NCBI GenBank assembly: GCA_021819435.1
Contig: JAKARB010000002.1
Location: 186,001 to 250,000 of the forward strand
DNA length: 64,000 nt
Reading direction: 5' to 3'
Source of the DNA: Pseudomonadota bacterium
Lineage (GTDB): Bacteria; Pseudomonadota; Gammaproteobacteria; Burkholderiales; Burkholderiaceae_C
Notes under the pieces: generated by a model
What the model saw: the letters and a program-made list of their open reading frames with translations, nothing else
The model's database searches: none
What the model was told of the DNA's origin: nothing
Part shown: piece after piece, positions 669 through 34,167 of the stretch
Position numbering within the stretch: position 1 is the stretch's first letter
Layout of the letters: every line of letters starts with the position of its first letter
Program-made: the position numbers and the translations under genes

Positions 669-685
669 GCTACCGATTTGGTCGC
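669..685. promoter_or_regulatory. GCTACC-type operator-like site upstream of erf
   Basis: GCTACC-GATTT-GGTCGC, a palindrome with one arm mismatch and an A/T-rich centre, 24 bases upstream of the erf start. It belongs to the dispersed 17-bp family described in the findings. Confidence 0.55.
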
Positions 686-693
686 ACAAAGTC

Positions 694-710
694 AAGCGCG
701 AAAAGGTAGC
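694..710 (-). promoter_or_regulatory. GCTACC-type half site upstream of erf
   Basis: Reading toward erf (minus strand) this is GCTACC-TTTTC-GCGCTT. Only the GCTACC half is conserved. It lies in tandem with the 669-685 site in the 69-base gap between erf and the DUF1064 gene. Confidence 0.5.
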
Positions 711-713
711 GGA

Positions 714-1166
714 TTACGTCTCAAGGATGTCGACGCCGTGAACCGACTTCATCAAGTGCCGCTTGATGCGATACACGTCGGTTCGGTGGCCCTTGCAGTC
801 CTCGACGACCTCACGGCCGAGTCGCTTGTCGAAATAAACGAAGTCGGCGAAGTAGCGAAGCGCGGGCTTAGTCTTCCCGTCGAGCTTGACGGCCGGGGCC
901 AGTTCGAAACGAACTTCGCGACGCAAGTTTTCGACTAGGCCAGCGTGAGCGAGAAGCATCAAGGCTTGATGCCGGTTTGCCTCGCGCTTGCTTCGGTACT
1001 TTTGGCCGCCCACTTCGCAAGCCTTGTTGCCGAACTTGCTCGGCTTCTTTGCGAGCACGAGCGAGGCGGCGGTCTTCGGCTTCCTGGCGCCATTGCTCAA
1101 CGTCTTCGAGCGTGATGCCGAGCGCGTGGCGGGTGCGCTCGACGAGTTCTTCTTCGGTGATGCCAT
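714..1166 (-). CDS. DUF1064 phage nuclease-like protein
   Basis: 150 residues. The second half has the DUF1064 pattern: SKFGNKACEVGG, YRSKREANRHQALML, then RYFADFVYF and EVVEDCKGHRTDVYRIK, ending in HGVDILET. The D and E-x-K residues fit a PD-(D/E)XK-type nuclease core, and the family is common in phage recombination modules. The first 36 residues are low complexity and overlap the upstream Ref-like gene in another frame; a GTG at 1058 just before the conserved part is a credible alternative start. It precedes erf in the same operon. Confidence 0.75.
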   Translation of the reverse strand: MASPKKNSSSAPATRSASRSKTLSNGARKPKTAASLVLAKKPSKFGNKACEVGGQKYRSKREANRHQALMLLAHAGLVENLRREVRFELAPAVKLDGKTKPALRYFADFVYFDKRLGREVVEDCKGHRTDVYRIKRHLMKSVHGVDILET

Positions 1167-1377
1167 AGGTTCGAATGAATGCCTTAGTCCCTAGTCCATG
1201 AATGCCGCTGTCGCCCCGGTGATGCTCGACACATAGGGGCATCGTGTCGAAGTCGCAGGCGCGGCGGCCGAGGCCGGTGCCCGTTCGCTTGTGGTGAACC
1301 TCGACGGGGAAGGCCCCGCACCCTGGCACCATGCAGCGAAGGCGGGCAACTTGCCCCATGTACGCGGCGCCGTTCAA
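868..1377 (-). CDS. Ref-family recombination-associated HNH nuclease
   Basis: Residues near the N-terminus read MGQVARLRCMVPGC, followed by VEVHHKRTGTGLGRRACDFDTMPLC and HHRGDSGIHGLGTKAF, the Cys/His pattern of the Ref (recombination enhancement function) nuclease family known from phage P1. I start it at a TTG (1377) that overlaps the stop of the upstream gene; an ATG at 1359 is the alternative, and a longer ATG at 1449 would overlap more. The frame runs on past the nuclease domain into a basic low-complexity tail that overlaps the DUF1064 gene by up to 299 bases, so the real C-terminal boundary is uncertain. Confidence 0.7.
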   Translation of the reverse strand: MNGAAYMGQVARLRCMVPGCGAFPVEVHHKRTGTGLGRRACDFDTMPLCVEHHRGDSGIHGLGTKAFIRTYGITEEELVERTRHALGITLEDVEQWRQEAEDRRLARARKEAEQVRQQGLRSGRPKVPKQARGKPASSLDASRSRWPSRKLASRSSFRTGPGRQARRED

Positions 1378-1784
1378 CTGAAGGCCCGCATCTTCTCGGC
1401 GACCTCTTCGGCGTACTTGCGCAGCGCCTTCGCGTTGCCCTTGCGCCAAATCGACTTAGGCGCGGCATGGCAACCGGCCGACTTCTGCGGCCCGTAGCCG
1501 ATGCGGCGAATCACGCCCTTGTCGGCGAGAACCTGGGTCACGGCGCCCCATGCGCGGCAATCGGGCGGCTCGGGCAAGCCTGCGGCCGTCGCGGCTTGTC
1601 GGATGTCTTCGGTCATGAACGAGTGCTCGCACGTCGCCAGGAAGTCGACGAAGAACGAGAGGGCTCGCGTGTGCCATCCACGATGGGCGCGGCTTGCTCT
1701 CTCTGCTGCGGCGTTCGCGCCATCGCGGGCGGCCGTGCGCTCGACGTTCAGGTCATGCCCGAACAAGGGTGCTTGAAGTTCCAT
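1374..1784 (-). CDS. Hypothetical phage protein, early region
   Basis: 136 residues. The second half (HSFMTEDIRQAATAAG, then CRAWGAVTQVLADKGVIRRIGYGP) looks like a small winged-helix domain of a type seen in phage replication regions, but I cannot name a function. The C-terminus is rich in Lys, Arg and Glu. It lies between the P-like loader (5 bases upstream) and the Ref-like nuclease (stop overlaps its start), so it is co-transcribed with replication and recombination genes. Confidence 0.6.
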   Translation of the reverse strand: MELQAPLFGHDLNVERTAARDGANAAAERASRAHRGWHTRALSFFVDFLATCEHSFMTEDIRQAATAAGLPEPPDCRAWGAVTQVLADKGVIRRIGYGPQKSAGCHAAPKSIWRKGNAKALRKYAEEVAEKMRAFS

Positions 1785-1788
1785 GTCA

Positions 1789-2469
1789 TCAATCCTTCGG
1801 GGTTACGTTCGTGCGTTTGAAGAGGCCCGCAAGCTGCTCACGAACACGCGCAGGCATGGGCACGGGGGTCGGGTTGTATGGAAGTTCGAGGGGGCGCTCG
1901 GGCACGTCGTCGAGCAAGCCTTCGCGGTCGGCCGCGAGCTTCTCTTCGTAGATGCGCGCCCATCGCTTTTGCTGCGCCTTGTATGGAAGAACCACGAGGT
2001 CGCCGCCCATTGCTGCGGCCGCCCAAAAGAGCGCGCGGCTCGGCCACTTGTCGGCCCGTCGGTCGCGTCGGCGCATCTGCTCGACTGCGACCTCGAAGTC
2101 GGCCTCGAAGTCAACGGGAGGGCGACACAAGGCCAGGAACTCGGGGAGCATCGGGGGCCACTTCTGGCGGCCGGTGACGCAAGCGCGAACCCCGCGAGTC
2201 ACCTCGCCGCGAGAGAGCCCCTCGGCTTCGATGCCTGCTTGCCATGTGGCCTTGATGACATCGAGCGGCACGCCTCGATAAGCGTCGGCGAACTTGGTGC
2301 CATAGGTCGCGAGCATCGTTTGAACAACGCCGTCGATGCCGTCGTCGACGATGGCCTTAAACGTCGACGATGTCGGGCTCGGGGCCGCCTTGACGACGGC
2401 GCCCGAAGGCTTGGCTCGTGAAGTCGTCGGCGTGGTCGAATCGTCCGGGTCGTGTTGGTCGTGTGCCAT
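1789..2469 (-). CDS. Replication protein P-like helicase loader
   Basis: 226 residues. Central GEVTRGVRACVTGRQKWPPMLPEFLALCR carries the WPPxLPEFLxLC signature of lambda P-type proteins, which load the host replicative helicase at the phage origin. About 30 N-terminal residues are Thr/Pro/Asp-rich and overlap the 3' end of the O-like gene by 113 bases, so the true start may be downstream. The pairing with an upstream winged-helix protein mirrors the lambda O-P pair. Family call by motif; helicase partner not shown. Confidence 0.75.
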   Translation of the reverse strand: MAHDQHDPDDSTTPTTSRAKPSGAVVKAAPSPTSSTFKAIVDDGIDGVVQTMLATYGTKFADAYRGVPLDVIKATWQAGIEAEGLSRGEVTRGVRACVTGRQKWPPMLPEFLALCRPPVDFEADFEVAVEQMRRRDRRADKWPSRALFWAAAAMGGDLVVLPYKAQQKRWARIYEEKLAADREGLLDDVPERPLELPYNPTPVPMPARVREQLAGLFKRTNVTPKD

Positions 2470-3238
2470 AGGTCGGTGAGGGCCTGAAGGTTTGCGGGGT
2501 GTTGAGTCGTGGCGCCTTGTCCTGCGCTCGGCTCATCCAGTTCGTGAGGAACCGCGTGTAATTGCTCTTTCGGTTGGCGGGGTTCGCCACGAGCCACAAG
2601 GCGGCGCGGCGGGCTTCTGCGTCCACGTCGATAGCCGGGAAGGCTTCGCGAAAGCGACCGAAAAGGTCGCCGATAGGGCCGAGAAAAGTGCCCTTCTCGA
2701 AGTCGAACTCGACGGGGTCGGCTTTTGTCTTCCTGGCGGCTCGCTTCGCTTTCGGTGGCGGCGCCTCTTCTCCTTCTTCTTTACTTACAGGTTCAATGAC
2801 AGGTTCGTCGGCAAATTTCGCCGGGGGGGTAGGCAAATTTCGCCGGGGGGCGGGGAGGTTTTCGCCAGGGGGCGGGGCGGCGAGATTTGCCGGGGGATGC
2901 TCGAAGCCCGAGGCCCTTGCCAGTTCGTCGAGGTCGACGGCCGTCGGCTTGCGCTTCAGTTCGCCGGGGCGCTCAAGGTTCAGCCGGAAGAGGTCGCTCA
3001 ACTGCTGGCCGTTCTTGCCTGCGCGCCCCCTGCGGCTCAGGAAGCCGTCGGCCTCAAGGCCCGCGAGGTGCTCGCGAACGGTGCGGGGGCTTTGCTCGGT
3101 GTAGGTCGAGAGGTTCGCTTGAGAAGGCCAGCAAACGCCCACCTCGTCGGCGAATTGAGCGAGGGCCATCAAGACGGCCTTACGCCCTGGCGAGCCGGTG
3201 GCCTGCTCCCAAGCCCATGCGATAGCCTGGAAGCTCAC
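2357..3238 (-). CDS. O-like replication initiator with winged helix
   Basis: 293 residues from a GTG at 3238 that overlaps the TGA of the upstream gene by four bases (GTGA); longer in-frame starts give only Arg/Pro-rich sequence. Residues 1-90 (WAWEQATGSPGRKAVLMAL, VCWPSQANLSTYTEQSPRT, REHLAGLEADGFLSRRG) form the helix-turn-helix domain found in phage replication proteins. A Pro-rich linker follows, then a C-terminal domain (FGRFREAFPAIDVDAEARRAAL, NWMSRAQDKAP). Probably binds the phage origin and recruits the P-like loader encoded next. Confidence 0.75.
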   Translation of the reverse strand: MSFQAIAWAWEQATGSPGRKAVLMALAQFADEVGVCWPSQANLSTYTEQSPRTVREHLAGLEADGFLSRRGRAGKNGQQLSDLFRLNLERPGELKRKPTAVDLDELARASGFEHPPANLAAPPPGENLPAPRRNLPTPPAKFADEPVIEPVSKEEGEEAPPPKAKRAARKTKADPVEFDFEKGTFLGPIGDLFGRFREAFPAIDVDAEARRAALWLVANPANRKSNYTRFLTNWMSRAQDKAPRLNTPQTFRPSPTYGTRPTRPGRFDHADDFTSQAFGRRRQGGPEPDIVDV

Positions 3239-3549
3239 GAGCGGCCCCCAATCGGGGCGGCCCCGGTCTTGCGCAACTGTTCGCGGGGGATGAGCAAGCC
3301 GTCGAGGCTCAGGCGCCCGCCCGATGCTTCCACGAGGGCGCGGGCGAGGTCGACGCCCGGCCGCTTGCGTCGGTCTTTGATGTGAAGCCAGTAACCGAAC
3401 GTCGTGCCCGCGCGCTCGCACATGGCGAGAATCTCTTCGCGGGGGGTCTTCTCGTGGAACTCATGCGGCGAGAGGGTCTTCGCCTTCGGCTTGCTTGCGG
3501 GCTTGAGAGGTTCTCCCGATACCGCTTTTTTCTTTCGTGAATCTTTCAT
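3235..3549 (-). CDS. Cro/YdaS-like helix-turn-helix regulator
   Basis: 104 residues. After a basic N-terminus, residues 34-95 (REEILAMCERAGTTFGYWLHIKD then GVDLARALVEASGGRLSLDGLL) match the small Cro/YdaS-like DNA-binding fold. It is the first gene of the leftward early operon, divergent from the repressor-like gene at 3691, the position of a Cro or antirepressor gene. A good ribosome site (AAGGAGAG) precedes the ATG. The perfect operator-like palindrome at 3610-3626 sits in its leader. Confidence 0.7.
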   Translation of the reverse strand: MKDSRKKKAVSGEPLKPASKPKAKTLSPHEFHEKTPREEILAMCERAGTTFGYWLHIKDRRKRPGVDLARALVEASGGRLSLDGLLIPREQLRKTGAAPIGGRS

Positions 3550-3609
3550 GTCTGTCTCTCCTTCGCTTGGGGGCGTTCAAAAGGGGGATTTGTTGAAAAG
3601 GGTCGCAAT

Positions 3610-3626
3610 GCTACCTTATTGGTAGC
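3610..3626. promoter_or_regulatory. Perfect GCTACC/GGTAGC palindrome in the immunity region
   Basis: GCTACC-TTATT-GGTAGC, both arms exact. It lies between the divergent Cro-like (3549) and repressor-like (3691) genes, where a lambdoid operator would be. It is the best reference copy of the dispersed element. Confidence 0.7.
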
Positions 3627-3654
3627 CCATGCGAACACGCGCTCGGCTAGACTT

Positions 3655-3671
3655 GCTACCAATTTGGAACA
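3655..3671 (+). promoter_or_regulatory. Second operator-like site before the repressor-like gene
   Basis: GCTACC-AATTT-GGAACA: first arm exact, second arm degenerate. It ends 19 bases before the rightward ATG at 3691. With 3610-3626 it makes a two-site arrangement like paired left and right operators. Confidence 0.55.
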
Positions 3672-3690
3672 CTAGGGATAGGGGTTAAAA

Positions 3691-4056
3691 ATGACTGCTT
3701 CTGAGATTCGACTGAAGAACTTCCTCGCACTGTTCGCGGCCTTCAAGATGAAGAACGCACACCTCCCCGATAAGGGCATGCTCAAGATGTGGGCGCTTCA
3801 TGTCGGCGGCGACGAGCGTCACTTCTCCCACATAAAGAACGGCCGCAAGGGCATCGGTCACGCCCTGGCCCGCCAGATCGAAGAGGCCGAAGGCTTGCCC
3901 GAAGGATGGCTCGACCGCGAACACGGTGACCTCGAACCCCGCGACCTTCATGAGCGGGCGTTCATCGAGACGGCTCTCGCGCTTTACCGCACGAGCCCCG
4001 CCGATGCTCAATCGAAGATGACCGAGCTTCTGAAGACGCGCCTCGCTGGTCGTTGA
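3691..4056 (+). CDS. Phage repressor-like DNA-binding protein
   Basis: 121 residues. The region FAAFKMKNAHLPDKGMLKMWALHVGGDERHFSHIKNGRKGIGHALARQIEEAEGLPEGWLDRE has helix-turn-helix character, and the phrase ARQIEEAEGLPEGWLD closely resembles the DNA-binding part of phage CI-type repressors. There is no C-terminal S24 (LexA-like) self-cleavage domain, so it is about half the usual repressor length. It is the only rightward gene in the control region and diverges from the Cro-like gene. Likely the immunity repressor or a partner; the DNA target is inferred. Confidence 0.65.
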   Translation: MTASEIRLKNFLALFAAFKMKNAHLPDKGMLKMWALHVGGDERHFSHIKNGRKGIGHALARQIEEAEGLPEGWLDREHGDLEPRDLHERAFIETALALYRTSPADAQSKMTELLKTRLAGR

Positions 4057-4201
4057 TCCCGCGAACACGGGGGTTTGTGTCCTCATTTATGACCGCCTAG
4101 ATAAGTGCCTTCACACTTCTTTCACATTTATCAAACTTCCGGTTACAGTTCCCGCCTCGCGCCACTTCGGGGCGTTGCAGTACCAAGGAAGGAAAGAGGA
4201 A

Positions 4202-4345
4202 ATGAACGAGAAGGCTTTCGTCGAACTGTTGAAGCAAGTTCAGCCGGAAGAGCGGGGGGAGGTCTTGAAGGCCCTCGCCGATCTCTCGGGCGACAAGAAG
4301 ACTACCGAAAAGGTAGCCCACGAAGGCGCGCGCATTGGTAGCTAA
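4202..4345 (+). CDS. Small hypothetical protein (47 aa)
   Basis: ATG preceded by a strong AAGGAAGGAAAGAGG ribosome site. The product begins MNEKAFVELLKQVQPEERGE and is mostly predicted helix (VLKALADLSGDKK). Its 3' end contains a GCTACC-type site and its last codons contain another GGTAGC. Third rightward reading frame after the repressor-like gene; function unknown. The ribosome site is the main reason for believing it. Confidence 0.6.
   Translation: MNEKAFVELLKQVQPEERGEVLKALADLSGDKKTTEKVAHEGARIGS
4301..4317. promoter_or_regulatory. Operator-like palindrome near the 3' end of the 47-aa gene
   Basis: ACTACC-GAAAA-GGTAGC, one arm-base mismatch. It is inside the small rightward gene and about 30 bases from the end of the converging leftward operon. 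A GGTAGC half also occurs at 4337-4342. Confidence 0.5.
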
Positions 4346-4504
4346 CTAGCCCAAAAGCGCGCACACTGCACGGGCGGCGAGAACGACGCCCGAACCCACA
4401 AGCCCGCCCACGGTAACGGCCGCGAGAAACACGCACACGGCCGACACCGGGCGGGCTTTTTTGTGGGCGACGATGACGCCAGGGGCGAACGGATAGCGGC
4501 TCAT
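4346..4504 (-). CDS. Small single-pass membrane protein (52 aa)
   Basis: ATG at 4504 overlaps the TGA of the upstream gene (ATGA). The sequence is MSRYPFAPGVIVAHKK, then one hydrophobic segment at residues about 19-50 (AVCVFLAAVTVGGLVGSG). Last gene of a leftward chain of five translationally coupled small genes. No family recognised; probably an inner-membrane accessory phage protein. Confidence 0.6.
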   Translation of the reverse strand: MSRYPFAPGVIVAHKKARPVSAVCVFLAAVTVGGLVGSGVVLAARAVCALLG

Positions 4505-4857
4505 GCTGGCACCTCTTCTGCTTGGGTTGCGGGAGCGGGCAGGGCGAGCAAGTTCGCGAGCTTCGTGTCGATGGCGTCGAGCTTGCCTTCGTACTCCGAC
4601 ACGATGCGGGCGCGCTCGGTGCGAAGTGCGGCCTCTTGTTCGCCGATGGGGTCGAAGTCCTCGGGGATGGTGAAGAGGGTCTTCAAGGGGCCGACGTACA
4701 CGAGGCCGGGAATCAAGGCGGCGCAATTGTCGCCAGGGAAGACCGAGAGGCGCGGCTTCGCTTGAAACTTGCCGTCGACGAAGCCGGGGGCCTCGTCGAT
4801 GTAGACGTGTGCGGCGACGGTGTGCGTCGAGCCAGGGGTGAAGGGCTTCGTGTTCAT
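4501..4857 (-). CDS. Hypothetical phage protein (118 aa)
   Basis: Starts at ATG 4857, which overlaps the stop of the 46-residue gene upstream (ATGA). The first half (YIDEAPGFVDGKFQAKPRLSVF, then LIPGLVYVGPLKTLFTIP) looks like beta strands; the second half is a charged helix (EQEAALRTERARIVSEYEGKLDAIDTK, cut here) able to form a coiled coil. Function unknown; part of the coupled leftward operon. Confidence 0.6.
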   Translation of the reverse strand: MNTKPFTPGSTHTVAAHVYIDEAPGFVDGKFQAKPRLSVFPGDNCAALIPGLVYVGPLKTLFTIPEDFDPIGEQEAALRTERARIVSEYEGKLDAIDTKLANLLALPAPATQAEEVPA

Positions 4858-4994
4858 GCTGCGAGCTTTCGGGCTGTTGCGTGGGTGGCTTGGGTCATGG
4901 TGAGCACGAGGTCGAGGGCGGCCCATGTGCTCGGGGCTTGGATCACGGCGCGAGAGGCGCCTCGGTCGGTGGTGTACTTGACGAGCACGGTCAC
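4854..4994 (-). CDS. Small hypothetical protein (46 aa, GTG start)
   Basis: GTG at 4994 overlaps the preceding gene's TGA (GTGA), and its own TGA overlaps the next ATG (ATGA). The product runs VTVLVKYTTDRGASRAVI, then helix-forming sequence to KLAA. Identified by the double coupling rather than by similarity. No function assigned. Confidence 0.5.
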   Translation of the reverse strand: MTVLVKYTTDRGASRAVIQAPSTWAALDLVLTMTQATHATARKLAA

Positions 4995-5293
4995 GGCTTG
5001 AGCCCCTTCGTCGTCATGTCGCCGCGCTCGGTGGCCTTGAGGTCTTCACGCAAGCAAGCCAGGGCGGCGGCCTCTGCGTTCTCGCGATACTTCTGCATGA
5101 TGATGGTCGTGAGGTGGCGCTCGGCGTAAGCCTTCAGGGGCTTGATTGCCACATTGAACGGGTGGTCGGCGTAGAGGTTGGAGTCGCCGAAGCCAAGCTC
5201 TCGGGCGACGCGCGAGACGATGGCGTTCGCGCCACGGTAAGCGGCGGCCTTCGCCACGTCTTGCGCTCTCTGTTCGATTACCTTGAGGTTCAT
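4991..5293 (-). CDS. Hypothetical helical phage protein (100 aa)
   Basis: ATG at 5293 overlaps the TGA of the upstream gene (ATGA). Mainly helical: MNLKVIEQRAQDVAKAAAYR, a central GFGDSNLYADHPFNVAIK, then a charged C-terminal helix. No known domain recognised. Its coupling on both sides supports it as real and co-expressed. Confidence 0.6.
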   Translation of the reverse strand: MNLKVIEQRAQDVAKAAAYRGANAIVSRVARELGFGDSNLYADHPFNVAIKPLKAYAERHLTTIIMQKYRENAEAAALACLREDLKATERGDMTTKGLKP

Positions 5294-5568
5294 GCTTGCT
5301 TGTCCTTCTGCTGCTGGTGGTACTTGTCCGACTCGGCGAGAAGAGCCTCGTCGCACTGCTGCGCCAGGGTGCCCCCTGGCTTGATTGGCACGTCGATAAA
5401 GCCCGAGGGGGCTTCAGGCGTGCCGGTGAATGTGCCGACCTCGTCGGGCGGCGGGTGCATGTGCCGGGTGCTTGGGATTCGGTAAGCCCTGGTGAGCACT
5501 CGGCGCCGCTCGTGGTCGACGAGTCCGACGAACGTCGTCGGGCCGGTCTTGCTGGTGTGAATAATCAT
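5290..5568 (-). CDS. Hypothetical phage protein (92 aa), operon lead gene
   Basis: First gene of the coupled leftward set 4346-5568. Begins MIIHTSKTGPTTFVGLVDHE, has a Pro-rich middle (HMHPPPDEVGTFTG) and a Gln/Lys-rich end. The ATG has no Shine-Dalgarno sequence; the GCTACC-type element ends only two bases before it. Function unknown. Confidence 0.6.
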   Translation of the reverse strand: MIIHTSKTGPTTFVGLVDHERRRVLTRAYRIPSTRHMHPPPDEVGTFTGTPEAPSGFIDVPIKPGGTLAQQCDEALLAESDKYHQQQKDKQA

Positions 5569-5569
5569 C

Positions 5570-5586
5570 GCTGTCGTTTTGGTAGC
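5570..5586 (-). promoter_or_regulatory. GCTACC-type element abutting a start codon
   Basis: On the coding (minus) strand GCTACC-AAAAC-GACAGC, two bases before the ATG at 5568, so it occupies the place of a ribosome site. A 16-base stretch around it is shared with the 33298-33314 copy, and the hairpin at 5591-5611 lies directly behind it. Confidence 0.55.
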
Positions 5587-5590
5587 CGAT

Positions 5591-5611
5591 AGGGGCGAGC
5601 GAATCGCCCCT
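5591..5611 (-). terminator. Hairpin between leftward genes
   Basis: AGGGGCGA / TCGCCCCT, a perfect 8-bp stem with a 5-base loop, six bases past the stop of the 72-residue gene. There is no clear T-run, so it may be a Rho-assisted terminator or processing hairpin. Nearly identical to the hairpin at 22633-22651. Confidence 0.55.
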
Positions 5612-5616
5612 CGCGC

Positions 5617-5835
5617 TCAGGCGTCGAACTCGTCGACGATTGCCAGGGCGACTACCGTGCCCTCGCTGTTGCGAACTGCGGCCTCGTGCTCGCGGCCGTT
5701 CGAGAAGATGCCGAAGCTCACGGTGTAGTCGCCGACCTTGCGAGTCTCGCTCTCTGGATTGGCGCGGCAGGCGTCGAAGATGGCCTCGGTCGCTGCGCCT
5801 TCGGTGATGTCGGTCGTGTGCTCAAGGTTGCGCAT
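5617..5835 (-). CDS. Small hypothetical phage protein (72 aa), paralogue pair member
   Basis: Sequence runs MRNLEHTTDITEGAATEAIF, then YTVSFGIFSNGREHEAAV and TVVALAIVDEFDA. The last 40 residues resemble the leftward gene at 33323-33544 (FGLFSVSFDETESGEHVATL, then VAAVAVVDAFDF), so the prophage carries two diverged copies at opposite ends. Function unknown. A perfect GCTACC palindrome lies 37 bases upstream. Confidence 0.6.
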   Translation of the reverse strand: MRNLEHTTDITEGAATEAIFDACRANPESETRKVGDYTVSFGIFSNGREHEAAVRNSEGTVVALAIVDEFDA

Positions 5836-5872
5836 GATGCTCGTGTCGGTGTGTTGCTGAAGTCCTCATTAT

Positions 5873-5889
5873 GCTACCTAAAAGGTAGC
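5873..5889. promoter_or_regulatory. Perfect operator-like palindrome
   Basis: GCTACC-TAAAA-GGTAGC with exact arms, in the gap between two leftward genes and 37 bases upstream of the ATG at 5835. Same spacing as the site before the 7120 start (38 bases). Confidence 0.65.
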
Positions 5890-5914
5890 GGACGCAAGAG
5901 GCGTTGCGCCGTTG

Positions 5915-6232
5915 TCACGCCTCGGCGTTCTTCTTCGTCGCGGCCTTCACTGCGGCCTCGGCCGTCTTGAACGCGCCGCACGAAGAGAAGCCGACGCCCT
6001 TGTTCGGCTTGTAAGCGAGCGTCCACGGCTTCGCGCGCTCTTTGTAGCCCCACCGGCCGACCGTGACGCCCGCCTCGTGATAGACGAAGAACCGGCCGCG
6101 AGCCACTTCGGCCGAGCCATGCACGCGAACCGTGCCCTCTGGCGTGGCGATGTGAGCCGGGGCGCACACGGCGACGGGCTCGACGGCGGTCGCTGGCTCG
6201 GTGTGTTCGTCTTCAATGTGTCGGGTGTCCAT
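5915..6232 (-). CDS. Hypothetical phage protein (105 aa)
   Basis: Acidic Thr/Ala-rich first 30 residues, then a beta-rich part (TVRVHGSAEVARGRFFVYHE, VGRWGYKERAKPWTLAY) and a Lys/Ala-rich C-terminal helix. I do not recognise the family. Lies in the leftward operon read from 7120. Confidence 0.55.
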   Translation of the reverse strand: MDTRHIEDEHTEPATAVEPVAVCAPAHIATPEGTVRVHGSAEVARGRFFVYHEAGVTVGRWGYKERAKPWTLAYKPNKGVGFSSCGAFKTAEAAVKAATKKNAEA

Positions 6233-6274
6233 GTCTTTACCTCTCGTGTGGTGCGGGCCGAGGCCCGCGTTCTA

Positions 6275-7120
6275 TTACTTGGCGACCATCACCTCGGCGA
6301 GCGGCTTGCCGTGAACCTCGGCGGCGAGCGTCTCGATTGCTTCGGCGTGCTGGCGCGCGCCACGGGCCGAGCCTTCGAGGTTCGCCGCCAGGATGGCGAC
6401 GGCCTGCTCTTGCATGTGGGCGGGCGCATCGGCGAAGGGCACGACCTCGGCGTTCATGAAGACCGAGGCGCGGGCGGTCTTCGGCTTGATGGTGCCCGCG
6501 CGCACCTTCGCGGCCTTCTCGGCTTGCTCGTCGGCGTGGGCGCGCAGGCTTTCGGCGACCTTGCTCGTGTAGTCGGTCGACACTTCCATCGGTGAGCGGC
6601 CCCACCCGTGGCAGGTGCCCGAGAAGAAGCCGAACTTCACCTCGTAGCCGTGTTTTGCGATGCGGCCGTCGGTGGCGGCTTGCTGGCTTCCGCAGGCTTG
6701 GCAGTGGCCGCGAAGCTGAAGGCGTGCGCCGTCGGCCTCGGTGAGCACCTTCTTCGCCTTCGGGGTGATGATGGCGCCCTTGATGGTCGACGCCAGGGCG
6801 ACGGCCTCTTCAATGCGGGCGACGGCCTCGGTCATGGCGGGGAACACTGCCAGGACGGCGGCCGAGTGCTTCGGCTTCCACTCGTGAGGAAGGCCGGGGA
6901 GGTTCCAGTAAAGCGCCTCAACGTCGGCGGGCATGTTGAGGGCGCCGTCGCGTGTGGCGAGGCAGGCTTCGCGAACCTCTTCGCGCATTGCCTCGTGTGC
7001 GGCGGTCGCGTCGGCGCGGGCGCGGTCTGCTGCGGCCTTCGTCGAGAAGCCTTCGGCCAGGGCGGCGCGGGCGGCTTCCATGCGGCGAGCGAAGCGGTCG
7101 GCGTTCGTTTGGCGGGTCAT
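6275..7120 (-). CDS. Hypothetical phage protein with CxxC motif (281 aa)
   Basis: Helical N-terminal half, then LQLRGHCQACGSQQA followed by GRIAKHGYEVKFGFFSGTCHG and GRSPMEVSTD. The CxxC plus later Cys/His residues suggest a zinc-stabilised fold. Similar 'GRIAKHGY' proteins occur in phages and plasmids, without assigned function as far as I know. Distal C-terminus is helical. A near-perfect GCTACC palindrome lies 38 bases upstream of the start. Confidence 0.6.
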   Translation of the reverse strand: MTRQTNADRFARRMEAARAALAEGFSTKAAADRARADATAAHEAMREEVREACLATRDGALNMPADVEALYWNLPGLPHEWKPKHSAAVLAVFPAMTEAVARIEEAVALASTIKGAIITPKAKKVLTEADGARLQLRGHCQACGSQQAATDGRIAKHGYEVKFGFFSGTCHGWGRSPMEVSTDYTSKVAESLRAHADEQAEKAAKVRAGTIKPKTARASVFMNAEVVPFADAPAHMQEQAVAILAANLEGSARGARQHAEAIETLAAEVHGKPLAEVMVAK

Positions 7121-7158
7121 GTCGGCGTGTCCTTGTTGCGTGTCAATGCCGTGATTCT

Positions 7159-7175
7159 GCTACCAAAAAGGTAGA
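7159..7175. promoter_or_regulatory. Operator-like palindrome upstream of the 281-aa gene
   Basis: GCTACC-AAAAA-GGTAGA, one mismatch at the end. In the 167-base divergent gap between the 7120 (leftward) and 7288 (rightward) starts, together with the site at 7254-7270. Confidence 0.65.
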
Positions 7176-7253
7176 CGACGCAAGAGGAAGAGGCAGAAAA
7201 ATCGCGCTACGTCGAAGAAACGGCGAGAAATTGGTGAAATGTGTCGCGCATTT

Positions 7254-7270
7254 GCTACCATTACGGACGT
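7254..7270 (+). promoter_or_regulatory. GCTACC-type half site before the ParB-like gene
   Basis: GCTACC-ATTAC-GGACGT: conserved first arm only, ending 17 bases before the ATG at 7288. Paired with 7159-7175 across a divergent promoter region, as in the immunity region. Confidence 0.45.
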
Positions 7271-7287
7271 AAACCGAACGGCCCGAC

Positions 7288-7941
7288 ATGCAAATCGAAC
7301 TCCGTCACCGCGAAAGCCTGAAGCCCTACGAAGCGAACTCTCGAACGCACTCGCCCGAGCAAGTGCGCCAGATTGCCGCGTCGATGCGCGCCTTCGGGTG
7401 GACGCTGCCCATCCTGGCCGACGGCGACACCATCGTCGCCGGTCACGGGCGCGACATGGCGGCCGCCCTCATCTACTCCGAGGGCGACTTCATTCGGTGG
7501 CCGAACGGCGCGGGCATCCCCTTCGGGATGGTGCCGGTCATCCCTTGCGATGGCTGGACGCCTGAGCAAGTGCGCGCCTATGTCATCGCCGACAACAAGC
7601 TCGCCCTAAATGCCGGGTGGGATGACGAGACGCTTCGCGCCGAGCTTGCCGCCCTGGCCGACCTGGGCTTCGACCTTGACCTCACCGGCTTCTCGGCCGG
7701 GGAAATCGCCGCCCTGAACGGCGAAGAGCCTCTCGACCTCGACGAAGAGGAAGAGGGCGACCGCGAGGGCACGGGTCAGAAGTTCGTCGCCATCGACGGC
7801 GAGAAGGTGCCCGTCACCGACGACGAGGTCGACGCGCTGCTCGCGGCCGTTCGGGATTACACGAGCCGCAACGGGATGAGCTTCGGCTTCTTCTCGAAGC
7901 TGCTGAACGACGCGGGGGCGAACACCGCCCTCGAAGACTGA
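7288..7941 (+). CDS. ParB/sulfiredoxin-like nuclease-domain protein
   Basis: 217 residues. The N-terminal 105 residues match the phage ParB-N/Srx domain: LKPYEANSRTHSPEQVRQIA, SMRAFGWTLPILAD, DTIVAGHGRDMAA, then VPVIPCDGWTPEQVRAYVIADN. GHGR in place of the usual GxxR box is typical. This domain often precedes DNA methylases in phages, but no methylase follows here. The C-terminal part is very acidic (DLDEEEEGDREG) and ends in a small helical domain. DNA binding or NTP-dependent activity is inferred. First rightward gene of the 7-15 kb block; no Shine-Dalgarno evident. Confidence 0.7.
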   Translation: MQIELRHRESLKPYEANSRTHSPEQVRQIAASMRAFGWTLPILADGDTIVAGHGRDMAAALIYSEGDFIRWPNGAGIPFGMVPVIPCDGWTPEQVRAYVIADNKLALNAGWDDETLRAELAALADLGFDLDLTGFSAGEIAALNGEEPLDLDEEEEGDREGTGQKFVAIDGEKVPVTDDEVDALLAAVRDYTSRNGMSFGFFSKLLNDAGANTALED

Positions 7942-7964
7942 CCCCTTCAACCCATCAAGACCAC

Positions 7965-8204
7965 ATGAACACGACCGTCTTCGCCTACACCGAGCCCGGC
8001 CAATCGAACCCGGCATTCGTCAACATCACCGAGAAGCCCGAGGGCCTGGTTCTGTACGCTCGCGCCCGTGGTGCGAACGCTCCCGTCGAGGTGCCGCTCA
8101 CCGAGCGCGAACTCGGCCGCCTGCTGGGTGTCCTGGCGAACCGTCGCCGCAACAAACGCGCCGCCGAAATGCGCGAGGCCCTGAACGAAGCGGCGGGGGC
8201 TTGA
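7965..8204 (+). CDS. Hypothetical phage protein (79 aa)
   Basis: Begins MNTTVFAYTEPGQSNPAFVN; predicted beta strands, then a basic helix (LGRLLGVLANRRRNKRAAEM). Stop overlaps the next ATG (TGATG). No function recognised; member of the coupled rightward small-gene run. Confidence 0.6.
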   Translation: MNTTVFAYTEPGQSNPAFVNITEKPEGLVLYARARGANAPVEVPLTERELGRLLGVLANRRRNKRAAEMREALNEAAGA

Positions 8205-10195: not shown

Positions 10196-10204
10196 GGTGA
10201 TGGG

Positions 10205-10756: not shown

Positions 10757-10759
10757 GCC

Positions 10760-12169: not shown

Positions 12170-12176
12170 CGACCGC

Positions 12177-12524
12177 ATGAAGACAACGACGACCGCACGA
12201 AAGAACGAAGGCCCGACGCCCCTCGAATGGTTCCTCGCCGAGCTTGCTCGGGTCGATGGGTGCGAGACGACGAAACGCAAGGTTCGCACGCTGCTCGGCC
12301 GCATGGCGGGGCAACAACTCTACTTGTCGAAGGCCGTTCTTCAGCACCGGGAGCGGGTACGCGCGGCCGTCGTGCTTCTTGATTCGGGCGTGTCTGCTAC
12401 CAAAACGCGCGCCGACATCGCGAGCCGCTTCAAGGTGACGGCTCGCACTGCCGAGCGCATCGTCACGAAGGCACTGAACGAGCGCGCCGCTTCTGCCGTG
12501 GGTGCCCGCAATGGTCGCGCCTGA
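12177..12524 (+). CDS. HTH-containing hypothetical phage protein (115 aa)
   Basis: N-terminal PTPLEWFLAELARVDGCE, then a basic middle and a C-terminal helix-turn-helix (TRADIASRFKVTARTAERIV). The final 14 bases overlap the MuF gene. The pattern recalls small phage regulators, but I cannot name it. A GCTACC-AAAAC-GCGCGC match at 12396 is coding for SATKTR. Confidence 0.55.
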   Translation: MKTTTTARKNEGPTPLEWFLAELARVDGCETTKRKVRTLLGRMAGQQLYLSKAVLQHRERVRAAVVLLDSGVSATKTRADIASRFKVTARTAERIVTKALNERAASAVGARNGRA

Positions 12525-15069: not shown

Positions 15070-15146
15070 GGCGTGACGGTGAGGCAGAAGCGAGCGCGGG
15101 GTCGCGCTCAATGCTGGGTCGGGGGTTCCTGGCCGACCGTCACGCC
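15070..15146. terminator. Nested inverted repeats at the convergent junction
   Basis: Outer arms GGCGTGACGGT (15070-15080) and ACCGTCACGCC (15136-15146) are exact complements. Between them GAGCGCG-GGGT-CGCGCTC (15092-15109) is a perfect 7-bp hairpin. Placed where rightward and leftward transcription converge, so probably a bidirectional terminator, though without a T-run. The right arm overlaps the last codons of the leftward gene. Confidence 0.5.
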
Positions 15147-15520
15147 TCAAGGTTGACGCGCAAGGCCATGAGCTTGTAAGCGTCGACCCGGTCTTCGTCG
15201 AGGATCGTCTCGACATACTCGCAAGACACGCCCGACATCGAGCCGAGCTTCGCGAGCAAATCGCCCTCCATCGTCAAGAGGGCTTGATATTCGGCCTCAA
15301 GCCCGGCCGTGAACTCGTGAACGGGCTTACCGAAGTAGATGAGGGCCTCGACGCGGCGCGCGCCGATGACGGCCCCGTAAGCCGTGCGCGATGGCACGAC
15401 CCGAACCATCGGGTAATCGGCGGGCGTCATGTTCGCTTCGAGGCCGATGCGGCACGTCGTCACGCCCGGCACAGTCGCCAGGGCGTCGCGGGTGGTGGTG
15501 AGGATGTCGAAGGGCTTCAT
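15140..15520 (-). CDS. Putative tail-completion / minor tail protein
   Basis: 126 residues: MKPFDILTTTRDALATVPG, TPADYPMVRVVPSR, then VEALIYFGKPVHEFTAGLEA. Size, position after the gp10-like gene and the beta-alpha pattern fit a gpU-like tail terminator, but no diagnostic motif is visible. Last gene of the leftward structural block. Its stop region overlaps the junction inverted repeat. Confidence 0.5.
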   Translation of the reverse strand: MKPFDILTTTRDALATVPGVTTCRIGLEANMTPADYPMVRVVPSRTAYGAVIGARRVEALIYFGKPVHEFTAGLEAEYQALLTMEGDLLAKLGSMSGVSCEYVETILDEDRVDAYKLMALRVNLEA

Positions 15521-15849: not shown

Positions 15850-15852
15850 TGT

Positions 15853-16296: not shown

Positions 16297-16328
16297 GTGA
16301 TGCAGGCGGGCGCGAGGCCCGCCCCTGG

Positions 16329-17081: not shown

Positions 17082-17090
17082 GGTCTTGCC

Positions 17091-17711: not shown

Positions 17712-17716
17712 TCGGT

Positions 17717-22651: not shown

Positions 22652-22656
22652 TGTTC

Positions 22657-22673
22657 GCTACCTTTTCGCACTC
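22657..22673 (+). promoter_or_regulatory. GCTACC-type half site before the tail chaperone gene
   Basis: GCTACC-TTTTC-GCACTC, conserved first arm, 14 bases before the ATG at 22688. The only intergenic copy of the element within the late region. Confidence 0.45.
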
Positions 22674-22687
22674 CAACACATCCGACC

Positions 22688-28181: not shown

Positions 28182-28185
28182 CGAC

Positions 28186-29067: not shown

Positions 29068-29079
29068 GAACCCCGACCG

Positions 29080-30348: not shown

Positions 30349-30350
30349 CC

Positions 30351-30905: not shown

Positions 30906-30907
30906 GC

Positions 30908-31919: not shown

Positions 31920-31924
31920 ATCAA

Positions 31925-32467
31925 ATGGACTTGAAGAGCCTCGGCAAGCGGCTCGCCGACGTGGGTCTTCCCCTGCTCGGCGCCGCGCTGCCTGTCCCTG
32001 GTGGTGCTGCAATCGGCGCCGCCCTGGCCGAGTATGTGACCGGCGACGCGAAAGCCTCGGCCGCCGATGTCGTCGACGCCATCACGGCCGACCCTGCTGC
32101 CCGCGAGCGCGCCGCCGAGTTTCAGGCGACGCACCGCGAGACGGTCTTGAAGGTGCTCACCGAGCACGACTTGAACCGGGCGCGCGTGGCCCTGGAAGAC
32201 CGCCAGGGCGCGCGGCGCGCTTCGGTTGAGGGTGGCACCGCGAAACGGCTGTTCGTGCTGTCTGTGGTCATCCTGGCCGCCTCGCTTGGCGCCGAGATTG
32301 CCGCGCTCTTCCACGGCTTGCCCGCTGGCGTGTCCGAGCTTGTCGTCGGCCGTGTGTTGGGCCTGCTCGACGCGGCCGCGATGCTGGTGCTCGGCTTCCA
32401 TTACGGCACGAGCGAAGGGGCCGGTCGAGCGACCGAACTGCTCGCGCAGTCTGCGCCCGTCAAGTGA
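31925..32467 (+). CDS. Holin, 3TM type
   Basis: 180 residues. Amphipathic N-terminus with GLPLLGAALPVPGGAAIGAA (first hydrophobic segment), a long charged middle (VLKVLTEHDLNRARVALEDR), then two membrane helices (FVLSVVILAASLGAEIAALF and VLGLLDAAAMLVLGFHYGTS). FHYGTSEGAGRATELL is the usual C-terminus of 3TM holins. It would permeabilise the inner membrane at lysis. Last gene of the rightward late operon; a terminator follows. Confidence 0.75.
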   Translation: MDLKSLGKRLADVGLPLLGAALPVPGGAAIGAALAEYVTGDAKASAADVVDAITADPAARERAAEFQATHRETVLKVLTEHDLNRARVALEDRQGARRASVEGGTAKRLFVLSVVILAASLGAEIAALFHGLPAGVSELVVGRVLGLLDAAAMLVLGFHYGTSEGAGRATELLAQSAPVK

Positions 32468-32486
32468 CGGGCTCCCGCAAATGACG

Positions 32487-32509
32487 AAGGCCCCCTCGGG
32501 GGCCTTTTT
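32487..32509 (+). terminator. Rho-independent terminator of the late operon
   Basis: AAGGCCCCCTCGGGGGCCTT: GC-rich stem with a tight loop, then five T. Twenty bases after the holin stop, closing rightward late transcription and facing the leftward accessory operon. Confidence 0.85.
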
Positions 32510-32514
32510 CATGC

Positions 32515-33051
32515 TCAAGCCGTGGCGGGCTCTGCCTTCATGGTGCGGCCCGGCGTGGGCGGCGGGTTGTCTTTCATGAGGCCGTCAATGTCGGCGCGCG
32601 CTGCGCTGAGTGTCATCGTCGGCAATCGAGACATGAGGCGGCGGCACTTCTCGCGCGTCTCGCTGTCCTCGTGGTCGTGCATGAGGAAGTTAAACCGCGT
32701 GAAGTCCTCGAAGACATCGCGCGGCACCTCGTGCCGAATGATGACGGGGACAAGGCGGGGCGCCCGCTGGCGGCGCTCGAACTCTTGCGTCAAGGCCCCG
32801 AGCATCATCACGGCGGCGTCGGCCCGCTGCGTCTCTTCGCGTCGCGTGAAGTGAGCCTCGCAGGCTTCGAGGCGCGCGTTCACTGCGTCGACGCGCAGGC
32901 GTTGAAGCGAGGCGCAGGCAATCGCGAGGCGGGCTTCGAGGTGCTCGACATCGTCGGCAATGCGAGCCATGCCTTCGGCGATGCCGTCGAGGCCGGTCGA
33001 GCGAGCCAGGGCGCGAAGGGATTGCGAGGGGGTCTTGTTAGGCGTGTGCAT
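32515..33051 (-). CDS. Hypothetical phage protein (178 aa)
   Basis: Helical N-terminal half (LRALARSTGLDGIAEGMARI, EHLEARLAIACASLQRLRVD) with coiled-coil character, then VPVIIRHEVPRDVFEDFTRF and a Met-rich helical end. No family recognised. Its start overlaps the upstream gene by 14 bases; third in the leftward accessory operon. Confidence 0.55.
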   Translation of the reverse strand: MHTPNKTPSQSLRALARSTGLDGIAEGMARIADDVEHLEARLAIACASLQRLRVDAVNARLEACEAHFTRREETQRADAAVMMLGALTQEFERRQRAPRLVPVIIRHEVPRDVFEDFTRFNFLMHDHEDSETREKCRRLMSRLPTMTLSAARADIDGLMKDNPPPTPGRTMKAEPATA

Positions 33052-33292
33052 GGTGTTCGTGTGCGTGGTGTTCGGCTTGTCTGCCGGTTGCGAAGCGGCG
33101 CAGGGCCGCGCGAAGGTTCAGAAGGCCCCGGGGGTCTGCCTTCCCCGATGGCATGACGAAGGCGCGCTCGTCGCCTTGCTTGTTCTTCAGGGTGAGCCGG
33201 TGGCGCCCCTGGCCGGTCTTGCCTATCTCGACGACCGAGAGGCCCTCGGCCTCGGCCATGTGTCGACATGCGCGCTCGGTGTTCTGCTTCAT
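33038..33292 (-). CDS. Small phage protein, HicA/dsRBD-like pattern (84 aa)
   Basis: RHMAEAEGLSVVEIGKTGQG then RHRLTLKNKQGDERAFVMPS and RGLLNLRAALRRFA. The G-x-G-x-H strand followed by a polar helix with RR recalls uncharacterised small phage proteins with a HicA or double-stranded-RNA-binding-like fold. C-terminus is His-rich (HHAHEHHAHA), a possible metal site. No ribosome site; the GCTACC element ends five bases before the ATG. Confidence 0.5.
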   Translation of the reverse strand: MKQNTERACRHMAEAEGLSVVEIGKTGQGRHRLTLKNKQGDERAFVMPSGKADPRGLLNLRAALRRFATGRQAEHHAHEHHAHA

Positions 33293-33297
33293 GGTGT

Positions 33298-33314
33298 GCG
33301 CTCGTTTTGGTAGC
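33298..33314 (-). promoter_or_regulatory. GCTACC-type element close to a start codon
   Basis: Coding strand: GCTACC-AAAAC-GAGCGC, ending five bases before the ATG at 33292. ATCGGCTACCAAAACGA is shared exactly with the 5570-5586 copy 28 kb away. Confidence 0.5.
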
Positions 33315-33322
33315 CGATGCGG

Positions 33323-33544
33323 TCAAAAGTCGAAGGCGTCGACGACGGCGACGGCCGCGACCTTCGTGCCTGCTCGCAGGGTGGCGACGTGTTCGCCGCT
33401 CTCTGTCTCGTCAAAGCTGACCGAGAAGAGGCCGAACCGGCAAGGCTGTCGGGCGGCGTTGTTGAGCACGGCGCGAAGGATGAGGTCTTGCGCCGTGTGC
33501 TCTGTGACGTGGTTCGATGTGATGGTGAGCGAGTGCATGTTCAT
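33323..33544 (-). CDS. Small hypothetical phage protein (73 aa), paralogue of 5617-5835
   Basis: MNMHSLTITSNHVTEHTAQD, then FGLFSVSFDETESGEHVATL and VAAVAVVDAFDF. The C-terminal 40 residues parallel those of the gene at 5617-5835 (SFGIFSNGREHEAAV...ALAIVDEFDA). Both have a GCTACC element in their leaders. Function unknown. Confidence 0.55.
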   Translation of the reverse strand: MNMHSLTITSNHVTEHTAQDLILRAVLNNAARQPCRFGLFSVSFDETESGEHVATLRAGTKVAAVAVVDAFDF

Positions 33545-33551
33545 GCGTCCT

Positions 33552-33911
33552 TCAGTGTGCGGCCGAAAAGGTAGCCGACGGGGTCAAGCGAAAGCGGCCG
33601 AGGTCGGCGAGGCGGGGGAGCATGTCGGCGAGCGCGTCGTGTGCTTCCTTGAGGGCGGCGTCGAGGCTCATCGCTTCGCCGTCGGCCATGCGTGCCAGGA
33701 AACGGGCGATGTCTTGCGAGAACGTCGTCGCGCGGTCGACGGGCACGAATGTCGCGGCCTGCTCGGCTTCCTGAAGGCGCAGGAAGAGCCCCGAGTCGGT
33801 CTTCACGACCCACGAGTCGGGCTTCGCCATCGCACCGGCCGCGAGCATGTCGAAGAGTCGGGCCTTATAGCTGTCGGCGAGGCTTTCGCGTGCTGCTTGC
33901 ATGTTGTTCAT
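33552..33911 (-). CDS. Hypothetical helical phage protein (119 aa)
   Basis: MNNMQAARESLADSYKARLF, then VVKTDSGLFLRLQEAEQAAT and DIARFLARMADGEAMSLDAA. Mostly helical; no known domain. A GCTACC element (33559-33575) lies inside its 3' end and upstream of the next leftward gene. Confidence 0.55.
   Translation of the reverse strand: MNNMQAARESLADSYKARLFDMLAAGAMAKPDSWVVKTDSGLFLRLQEAEQAATFVPVDRATTFSQDIARFLARMADGEAMSLDAALKEAHDALADMLPRLADLGRFRLTPSATFSAAH
33559..33575 (-). promoter_or_regulatory. GCTACC-type element upstream of the 73-aa gene
   Basis: Coding strand: GCTACC-TTTTC-GGCCGC, 14 bases before the ATG at 33544 and overlapping the last codons of the upstream gene. Same core as the sites at 694-710 and 22657-22673. 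Confidence 0.5.
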
Positions 33912-33924
33912 GGTTCGGTGTCTC

Positions 33925-34104
33925 TCAGTTTCGAACGCGCTTCAACTGGCGCGGGTTGTTTCGCTTGTTGTCTTCCTCGACCTCTTTGCTCCACTCGTGG
34001 GGGTCGGCAAATTCCGCGCTCTGCTCGGCTTTCGTCTTCCATCCGAGTGCGCTCGCGATGCGCCTGTCGAGCGCGTCGCAGTCTTCTAGCGTGATGAGTG
34101 CCAT
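33925..34104 (-). CDS. Small hypothetical / excisionase-position protein (59 aa)
   Basis: MALITLEDCDALDRRIASAL then GWKTKAEQSAEFADPHEWSK and a basic end. Start placed at ATG 34104, downstream of the repeat cluster at 34135-34167; a longer frame to 34218 would run through those repeats. Next to the integrase and small and charged, so it could be an excisionase, but no winged-helix signature is evident. Confidence 0.45.
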   Translation of the reverse strand: MALITLEDCDALDRRIASALGWKTKAEQSAEFADPHEWSKEVEEDNKRNNPRQLKRVRN

Positions 34105-34134
34105 GCCGTCGGCCGCGTTGTTGTGAAGCCGTAA

Positions 34135-34167
34135 GTATGCGACCAATTCGGTAGCGTATGCGACCAA
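34135..34167. promoter_or_regulatory. Direct repeats plus GCTACC-type site beside the integrase gene
   Basis: GTATGCGACCAA occurs at 34135-34146 and 34156-34167 (21-base period, two helical turns). Within them lies GCGACC-AATTC-GGTAGC (34139-34155), a variant of the dispersed element. Located between the integrase 3' end and the 59-residue gene, so a regulator or excisionase binding region is plausible. Confidence 0.5.

Follow-up and report, generated by a model that had tools for sequence, protein, structure and literature searches.

The 64,000-nucleotide stretch of DNA analysed here (the window) contains part of a 38.7-kb prophage in which a 17-bp element, GCTACC-N5-GGTAGC, recurs at many places, raising the question of which protein reads this element and how its copies act. 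The prophage is flanked by a 49-bp attachment repeat, the right copy of which lies at 35539..35587 (strand not applicable) and the left copy of which starts at -3146, outside the window (negative positions are to its left). A tyrosine integrase is encoded at 34199..35488 on the minus strand (Pfam PF00589, 1.8e-9; PHROG 1).

Two exact copies of the element, at 3610 and 5873, were identified, as the initial annotation had claimed, whereas 100 shuffled sequences contained a mean of 0.00. All 13 coordinates that it had listed exist, and 11 of these are among the matches with up to three mismatches. This loose pattern gave 44 matches against 24.3 expected, indicating that by itself it yields many chance matches, and it was dropped as a search tool. 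A weight-matrix scan, the kind of check that had been proposed, was made with a matrix derived from relatives; it found 13 sites above 14 bits in the prophage, compared with 0.16 for column-permuted matrices, and 0 in the 45 kb of host sequence flanking it. With the relatives' matrix, which was trained on sites chosen with the window matrix and is thus not fully independent of it, 11 of the 13 listed sites scored above 14 bits, the others being 694 (9.5) and 22657 (10.0). These two are present, but as half-sites consisting of one good and one degenerate half. Sites beyond the list were found at -1858, -635, 2654, 4326, and 12396, and approximately 16 copies are distributed over the prophage from -1858 to 34139 (about 36 kb). 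The element had been described as lying almost only in gene gaps; 12 of the 16 copies do so, gaps accounting for 9% of the prophage, but 2654, 4301, 12396, and 33559 overlap genes. (The gene caller placed 13 of 16 in gaps; it had missed the replication-gene ORF, and 2654 is truly coding.) Both arms of the palindromic motif are conserved, and the copies at 3610, 5873, and 2654 are perfect palindromes. The motif sites and their non-random placement are therefore real.

Individual copies differ in quality and setting. The sites at -1858 and -635, in the part of the prophage left of the window, each lie in a short gap or gene junction before a start codon. The putative operator at 669..685 (minus strand), 24 bp upstream of the gene starting at 644, occupies the spacer of a promoter-like sequence (TTGACT-17-TAGCAT), with promoter scores of 13.5 (sense) and 9.9 (antisense); it is one of two promoter-like matches in a stricter scan of positions 1-8000, in which 0.7 were expected. 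The half-site at 694..710 (minus) is 25 bp from it. The copy at 2654..2670 (minus) is a perfect variant palindrome with the arms GCGACC/GGTCGC, located within the gene for a replication initiation O-like protein (2357..3421, minus; PHROG 1032, 4.9e-24); the equivalent codons also bear a site in two related phage contigs, G438 and G439, and this palindrome may be partly protein-driven. The gap between the repressor gene and the divergent Cro-like gene contains two putative operators. The perfect one at 3610..3626 (minus) is surrounded by a promoter-like sequence in the Cro direction (TTCGCA-16-TAGCAT; sense score 8.9, with null 90th and 99th percentiles of 3.66 and 9.33), and the other, at 3655..3671 (plus; matrix score 14.5), lies 19 bp before the repressor start. 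The candidate operator at 4301..4317 (minus; 23.9) is at the end of a small plus-strand ORF. The repressor gene lies on one side of this operator and the accessory genes, transcribed leftward towards that gene, on the other. A weak site at 4326..4342 (minus; 8.4) is 25 bp from the operator. A half-degenerate site at 5570..5586 (minus; 15.5) directly precedes an ATG at 5568, although this start codon is uncertain, and its promoter score (3.9) is below the null 99th percentile.

The perfect copy at 5873..5889 (minus), 37 bp upstream of the gene starting at 5835, lies in the spacer of a promoter-like sequence (TTGCGT-18-CATAAT), with scores of 9.8 (sense) and -2.5 (antisense), and the stricter promoter scan gave no match there. 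The copy at 7159..7175 (minus) lies in a similarly promoter-like spacer (TTGCGT-18-CAGAAT; score 7.1) 38 bp before the gene starting at 7120, and that at 7254..7270 (plus; matrix score 18.6) is separated by 17 bp from the downstream ParB-like gene at 7288. A weak half-degenerate site at 12396..12412 (plus; 12.9) falls inside a called gene whose start differed between callings. The half-site at 22657..22673 (plus) is followed after 14 bp by the late gene at 22688. Further half-degenerate sites were found at 33298..33314 (minus; 15.9), before a start codon (either the ATG at 33292 or position 33259, where the gene caller placed it), and at 33559..33575 (minus; 14.5), overlapping the 3' end of a called gene and immediately preceding the one that follows. 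Finally, the putative operator at 34139..34155 (minus; 22.8) is 34 bp before a small gene adjoining the integrase; only weak promoter-like hexamers were found around it (score 4.6), and the stricter promoter scan had no match. Several of the sites in the window have sequences too degenerate to be assigned confidently as binding sites.

The 121-aa protein encoded at 3691..4056 on the plus strand is related to PHROG 12107 ('transcriptional repressor', 8e-9), has a helix-turn-helix by sequence, and matched a phage CI chain in the PDB in a profile search (3.4e-6). Only residues 1-82 match repressor families (PHROG). The protein was assigned to no Pfam family, and no match was found to the C-terminal peptidase domain that is a feature of LexA-like self-cleaving CI proteins, or to any other peptidase domain.

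Relatives of this repressor were found by a profile search of genome contigs, a single-sequence search having given none. Nine phage contigs encode a repressor relative: six contain many sites, one contains two, and two with a changed recognition helix contain 0 and 1. In the five close contigs (G437-G441), in which the repressor is 44-52% identical, sites above 14 bits were compared with those found by 200 permuted matrices: 12 versus a mean of 0.32 (maximum 8) in G438, where one site near both record ends may be double-counted; 8 versus 0.42 (4) in G437; 10 versus 0.69 (5) in G439; 2 versus 0.28 (3) in G440; and 7 versus 0.47 (3) in G441. Host flanks contained 0 sites in this comparison. Enrichment in gaps was significant in four of the five (p from 9e-4 to 1e-7), the value for G440 being 0.063 with 3 sites. 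L103 and L104 contain 11 sites each in 20 kb, and at their syntenic sites 128 of 132 arm positions are identical (97%), compared with 74% of the flanks. The motif is thus conserved in related phages, with the arms better kept than their surroundings in this pair. L102 and L105, which have SQINNDRK in place of SH(I/V)...RK in the presumed recognition helix, contain 0 and 1 sites, and a de novo palindrome search in these two gave weak candidates only. L069 shares the capsid (69%), yet has 0 sites in 18.9 kb.

The association extends to bacterial genomes. All 17 genome loci with a homologue of the repressor have sites within 1.5 kb of the gene, with 39 sites in 48.9 kb near the homologue versus 0 in 243.4 kb, although these loci are mutually related and do not represent 17 independent cases. 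More distant homologues (33-41% identical) occur in 7 of 41 other genomes of the genus (E 1e-3) and in 48 of 398 others of the family (E 1e-8). Among 36 short loci with such homologues, each about 3 kb long, 34 had no match above 12 bits, and L011 and L058 had one each; at four of the seven genus loci, a different palindrome was found near the homologue gene. Two other searches were set aside: the exact pattern with an A/T centre matched 20 of 399 family genomes, no more commonly than a reversed control, and was not used as evidence, and TGTACC-N5-GGTACA, clustered beside LexA-type repressors (L007 and L008), was rejected as the same specificity because the stretch that the proteins have in common is not the presumed recognition helix.

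The sites therefore co-occur with the 3691 repressor family and with its presumed recognition helix. The 17-bp element is very probably the operator for the CI-like repressor of 121 aa encoded by the prophage itself, and is dispersed such that many transcription units would be silenced directly. Of the two candidate silencers named in the initial annotation, the 3691 protein is thus the likely binder, and the idea of dispersed repressor-type sites over many units is retained. We infer binding, dimerisation, repression, and a roadblock role for this protein. On the model of other helix-turn-helix repressors, it would bind GCTACC-N5-GGTAGC probably as a dimer, with one subunit on each GCTACC arm. 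Copies over the early, accessory, late, and immunity units would allow one repressor to silence many of them directly. At some sites, most clearly 669 and 5873, the operator would fill the spacer between -35 and -10, and the bound repressor should exclude RNA polymerase. The sites in short gaps before start codons retain a good match only in the upstream arm and may serve as roadblocks to elongation or as operators of low affinity.

The Cro-like protein (3235..3549, minus), which matched no PHROG or Pfam entry, may compete at some sites. That it, rather than the repressor, is the main reader is unlikely, even though homologues are present in all five close phage relatives, directly adjoining the repressor in four and at the opposite record end in the fifth, and a HIK..RK stretch is common to the presumed recognition helices of both proteins (by eye). 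Sites persist at all 17 genome loci, none of which has a tblastn match to the window's Cro, so that the sites can be explained without Cro; moreover, a weak Cro match is present in each of L102, L104, and L105, whereas many sites occur only in L104, tracking the repressor helix. It is very unlikely that the copies act at the RNA level, as terminator or attenuator hairpins: a 6-bp stem is possible for the perfect copies, but no T run follows directly 3' of these, one-sided arm changes (GCGACC/GGTAGC) break the pairing, half-sites occur, compensatory two-sided changes are absent at most sites, and no Rfam match reached the gathering score in the window. It is extremely improbable that the copies serve the ParB-like protein at 7288 (PHROG 620, 3e-43), before whose gene one of them lies, in partition or segregation, as only two of the 18 loci searched, L089 and L090, gave a ParB-like match and the motif tracks the repressor. 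Chance or base composition is a virtually negligible explanation; the 24 matches expected for the loose pattern would favour it, but the permuted-matrix and host controls and the conservation in relatives contradict it.

A further alternative concerns the mode of action of the 3691 repressor, namely that most sites are true stoperators, as in mycobacteriophage L5, stopping moving RNA polymerase rather than blocking promoters. Start codons follow the sites at -1858, -635, 5570, 22657, 33298, and 33559, all of which occupy short gaps or gene junctions; among asymmetric sites in tandem gaps, the better half is upstream in six of seven (window) and 16 of 23 (relatives); and the double site 4301/4326 faces transcription heading into the immunity region. 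However, the orientation bias is weak (one-sided p of 0.06 in the window and 0.047 in relatives), the best sites are symmetric whereas the L5 site is described in the available text of PMC9283540 as asymmetric and monomer-bound, and some sites sit in promoter-like spacers. The promoter score exceeded the null 99th percentile at nine of 43 sites in the sense direction and at one in the antisense direction. At the 90th percentile, the corresponding numbers were 22 and 18 of 43 overall and six and one of 12 in the window, and the mean sense-minus-antisense difference was not significant (p of 0.20 in relatives and 0.09 in the window). This control reduced the proposal that every site is a promoter spacer to a minority of sites, most clearly 669 and 5873, which appear to fill a sigma-70-like spacer. 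Stoperators as the general rule are thus possible but doubtful. The L5 analogy in the initial annotation is at odds with the palindromic motif, both arms of which are conserved, and with the placement of a minority of copies within promoter spacers, but it suits the half-degenerate sites just before start codons, which may be stoperator-like, the evidence from orientation being weak.

Dispersed repressor sites have already been described, in the portions of the literature consulted, for P1, cluster A mycobacteriophages (L5), and SPbeta. In L5 and cluster A, according to excerpts of PMC9283540 and PMC6550527, many sites occur genome-wide in promoter regions and short intergenic spaces with an orientation bias, and the prophage likewise has many dispersed sites; unlike the 13-bp asymmetric sites of L5, which these excerpts present as thought to be monomer-bound, the prophage site is a 17-bp palindrome with a weak orientation bias. 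The operator consensus of P1 C1 is also 17 bp but asymmetric. The SPbeta system of Bacillus (MrpR/SPBRE), as outlined in the accessible part of PMC10516654, likewise pairs one master repressor with a conserved element, there in many prophage promoter regions; however, MrpR has a tyrosine-recombinase fold, whereas the 3691 protein matches helix-turn-helix phage CI types. Lambda, N15, and phiKO2 (excerpts of PMC4997575) share with the prophage a divergent repressor-Cro gene pair whose gap holds operators (here the putative ones at 3610 and 3655) and operator lengths of 16 to 17 bp. In these phages, on the same partial text, five (N15 and phiKO2) or six (lambda) operators lie near the repressor, in contrast to approximately 16 over 36 kb here. 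Relative to P1, L5, and SPbeta, palindromic dispersed operators run by a small CI/Cro-type repressor look new.

We tentatively suggest, as a possibility somewhat short of an even chance, that an undescribed family of small, peptidase-less CI-like proteins silences, genome-wide, a group of temperate phages, some probably of Burkholderiales, via one conserved palindrome, using both promoter-spacer operators and sense-oriented roadblocks before start codons, and that the repressor-operator pair may have been kept in the genomes of Noviherbaspirillum and relatives, where it would control a captured phage AAA_24/Gp157 module. Defined by sequence, the operator can be traced from the prophage of the window into six other phage contigs and 17 loci of bacterial genomes, and natural variants of the recognition helix lack it. 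Together, these features make operator specificity, the distinction between operators and stoperators, and immunity groups testable, and the motif can be used to find direct repressor targets in uncharacterised prophages.

The 49-bp direct repeat that bounds the prophage resembles a tRNA 3′ end and sets its limits at −3146 and 35587 (38.7 kb; negative positions lie to the left of the window, which sits within one contig of a 4.4-Mb genome), and no intact tRNA was detected in the window by ARAGORN. Two exact copies of the GCTACC-N5-GGTAGC palindrome were observed (shuffled mean, 0.00). Using a weight matrix built from the 13 sites of the initial annotation (the window matrix), the top 16 matches (at least 13.8 bits) all fell inside the prophage, whereas the best match in 45 kb of flanking host DNA scored 9.9 bits. 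Because this matrix was trained on the very sites scored, the scan was repeated with a matrix of 66 related-phage sites (the relatives' matrix), which is not fully independent since these sites had been chosen with the window matrix. Above 14 bits, it identified 13 sites in the window, compared with 0.16 for column-permuted matrices, and none in the host flanks. Eleven of the 13 annotated sites were recovered at this threshold, which upholds them as a repeat; those at 694 and 22657 are half-sites. The window matrix added sites at −1858, −635, 2654, 4326, and 12396. Exact halves (GCTACC or GGTAGC) number 21 in the prophage, with 15 in 2.8 kb of gaps, and 16 in the host flanks, with 3 in 9.3 kb of gaps.

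Gaps, defined by a purpose-written codon-based gene caller, occupy 9% of the prophage, and the caller places 13 of the 16 sites there. It skipped the replication-initiator ORF at 2357–3421 (a PHROG replication protein), however, so site 2654 in fact falls within a gene and the corrected figure is 12 of 16. The claim that sites lie almost only in gene gaps stands apart from the exceptions at 2654, 4301, 12396, and 33559. The replication-initiator site occurs at equal codons in three phages (window 2654, and G438:45746 and G439:34316 in two close phage contigs), and two of the three copies are perfect palindromes. This shared site may serve as an operator linked to the replication origin or may only reflect conservation of the protein, and it is not independent evidence because the replication protein itself is conserved there. 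Transcripts from the repressor gene and from the leftward accessory genes would meet head-on at the double site 4301/4326. Two small genes of unknown function, 5617–5835 (−) and 33323–33544 (−), belong to separate leftward operons, each directly downstream of a site, and are probably paralogues, judging from their sequence match (E 6e-6 in one direction and 0.007 in the other). The gene for a ParB-like protein (7288–7941, +), which also matches a phage DNA-methyltransferase family, begins 17 bp past a site.

Flank inspection revealed several sites occupying the spacer of a sigma-70-like promoter, e.g. TTGCAA-T-[site]-ATAAT in G438 and TTGATA/TATAAT around a site in the bacterial genome locus L084. 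When sense and antisense promoter scores were compared, with gene-upstream positions at matched distances as the null, the means showed no sense excess (relatives, p 0.20; window, p 0.09). Scores above the null 90th percentile were obtained for 22/43 sense and 18/43 antisense cases (6/12 versus 1/12 in the window), and those above the 99th percentile for 9/43 and 1/43, respectively. A minority of sites are therefore convincing as putative promoter operators, 669 and 5873 being the clearest in the window. A strict promoter scan of 1–8000 returned two promoter-like matches (0.7 expected), one coinciding exactly with site 669 and neither with 5873, and no promoter-like match was found in 32400–35600. 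The remaining sites lie in short gaps near start codons and have one decayed arm, more often the downstream one (6/7 in the window and 16/23 in relatives).

Excerpts of published reports describe 22 dispersed repressor operators in P1 (PMC8546580), dispersed repressor sites in cluster A mycobacteriophages (PMC9283540 and PMC6550527) and SPbeta (PMC10516654), five operators near the repressor in N15 and phiKO2 (PMC4997575), and both operators and stoperators in L5 (PMC9283540). The suggested likeness to L5 stoperators extends to the dispersal of the sites and perhaps to those near start codons with one decayed arm, whose orientation bias is weak, but the prophage site is a palindrome, whereas P1 and L5 sites are asymmetric according to these excerpts, and a minority of sites occupy promoter-like spacers. 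Searches of an open-access literature collection, which excludes most subscription papers, yielded no paper that by its title or abstract opening treats the motif or the repressor family.

The 121-aa protein encoded at 3691 matches PHROG 12107 phage transcriptional repressors (8e-9) and PDB phage CI chains, with no Pfam match or sign of a peptidase domain. A profile from the alignment of six homologues found by protein search identified 17 bacterial genome loci and five phage contigs, and a wider profile added four further phage contigs. By title, the genome loci are mostly Oxalobacteraceae, and the named relatives are mainly Noviherbaspirillum (Burkholderiales), plus genera in or near Oxalobacteraceae, which suggests a Burkholderiales host. 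In one Noviherbaspirillum locus (L079:7517–10405), the repressor homologue, an AAA_24 ATPase, a Sipho_Gp157 protein, and one further gene, with operator-like sites, are surrounded by ordinary metabolic genes. Similar genes are present in all five genome loci read (L071, L077, L079, L084, and L086), and the arrangement looks like a captured phage module.

Other palindromes were observed. Three phages with LexA-type repressors (L007, L008, and L017) carry TGTACC-N5-GGTACA clustered beside the repressor, sharing the 6-5-6 spacing of the prophage motif and differing in the outer bases. GTAAAGA-C-TCTTTAC, near the repressor gene in four repressor relatives of the same genus (L013, L014, L015, and L016), perhaps represents another operator class. 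GATACC-N5-GGTATC-like palindromes at L102:1715, 4559, 6908, 11955, and 12050 are tentative candidates for the dispersed operator of the repressor of this more distant phage contig, which has a variant helix, SQINNDRK. The portal and neighbouring genes of the prophage (15140–19201, −) run leftward within an otherwise rightward packaging-head-tail region. This layout is probably conserved rather than recently inverted, because L069, a phage contig with a 69% identical capsid, likewise carries its portal on the opposite strand.

In the five close phage contigs (repressor 44–52% identical), 12, 8, 10, 2, and 7 sites exceeded 14 bits (permuted means, 0.28–0.69), the two of G440 being inside the permuted-control range (maximum 3). 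Gap bias was significant in four contigs (p 9e-4 to 1e-7), with p 0.063 for the three sites of G440. In G438, the Cro homologue and repressor lie at opposite record ends. One site recurs close to each end with matching surroundings, pointing to a genome that is circular or redundant, although a search for exact terminal repeats of 21–400 bp found none. Capsid-sharing L069 contains no site in the 18.9 kb scanned. The window's Cro-like protein had no match at E 1e-3 in the 17 genome loci, which are related to each other and hence are not 17 independent cases; in every one of the 17, sites occur no more than 1.5 kb from the repressor gene, with 39 in the 48.9 kb near it versus none in the remaining 243.4 kb. 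Among the more distant phage contigs, L103 and L104 (repressor 33 and 31% identical; presumed recognition helix SHINTGRK) have 11 sites each, and L102 and L105, with presumed helix SQINNDRK, have 0 and 1. All 11 L103 sites have a syntenic L104 partner, with 97% identity in the arms versus 74% in the flanks. The matrix scan of the prophage and its relatives, proposed initially as a check, found gap enrichment, no host-flank sites, and conservation in relatives. Site counts track repressor homologues and their presumed recognition helix, as expected if the protein at 3691 reads the dispersed sites, and this comparative evidence strongly supports the motif being read by the repressor family.
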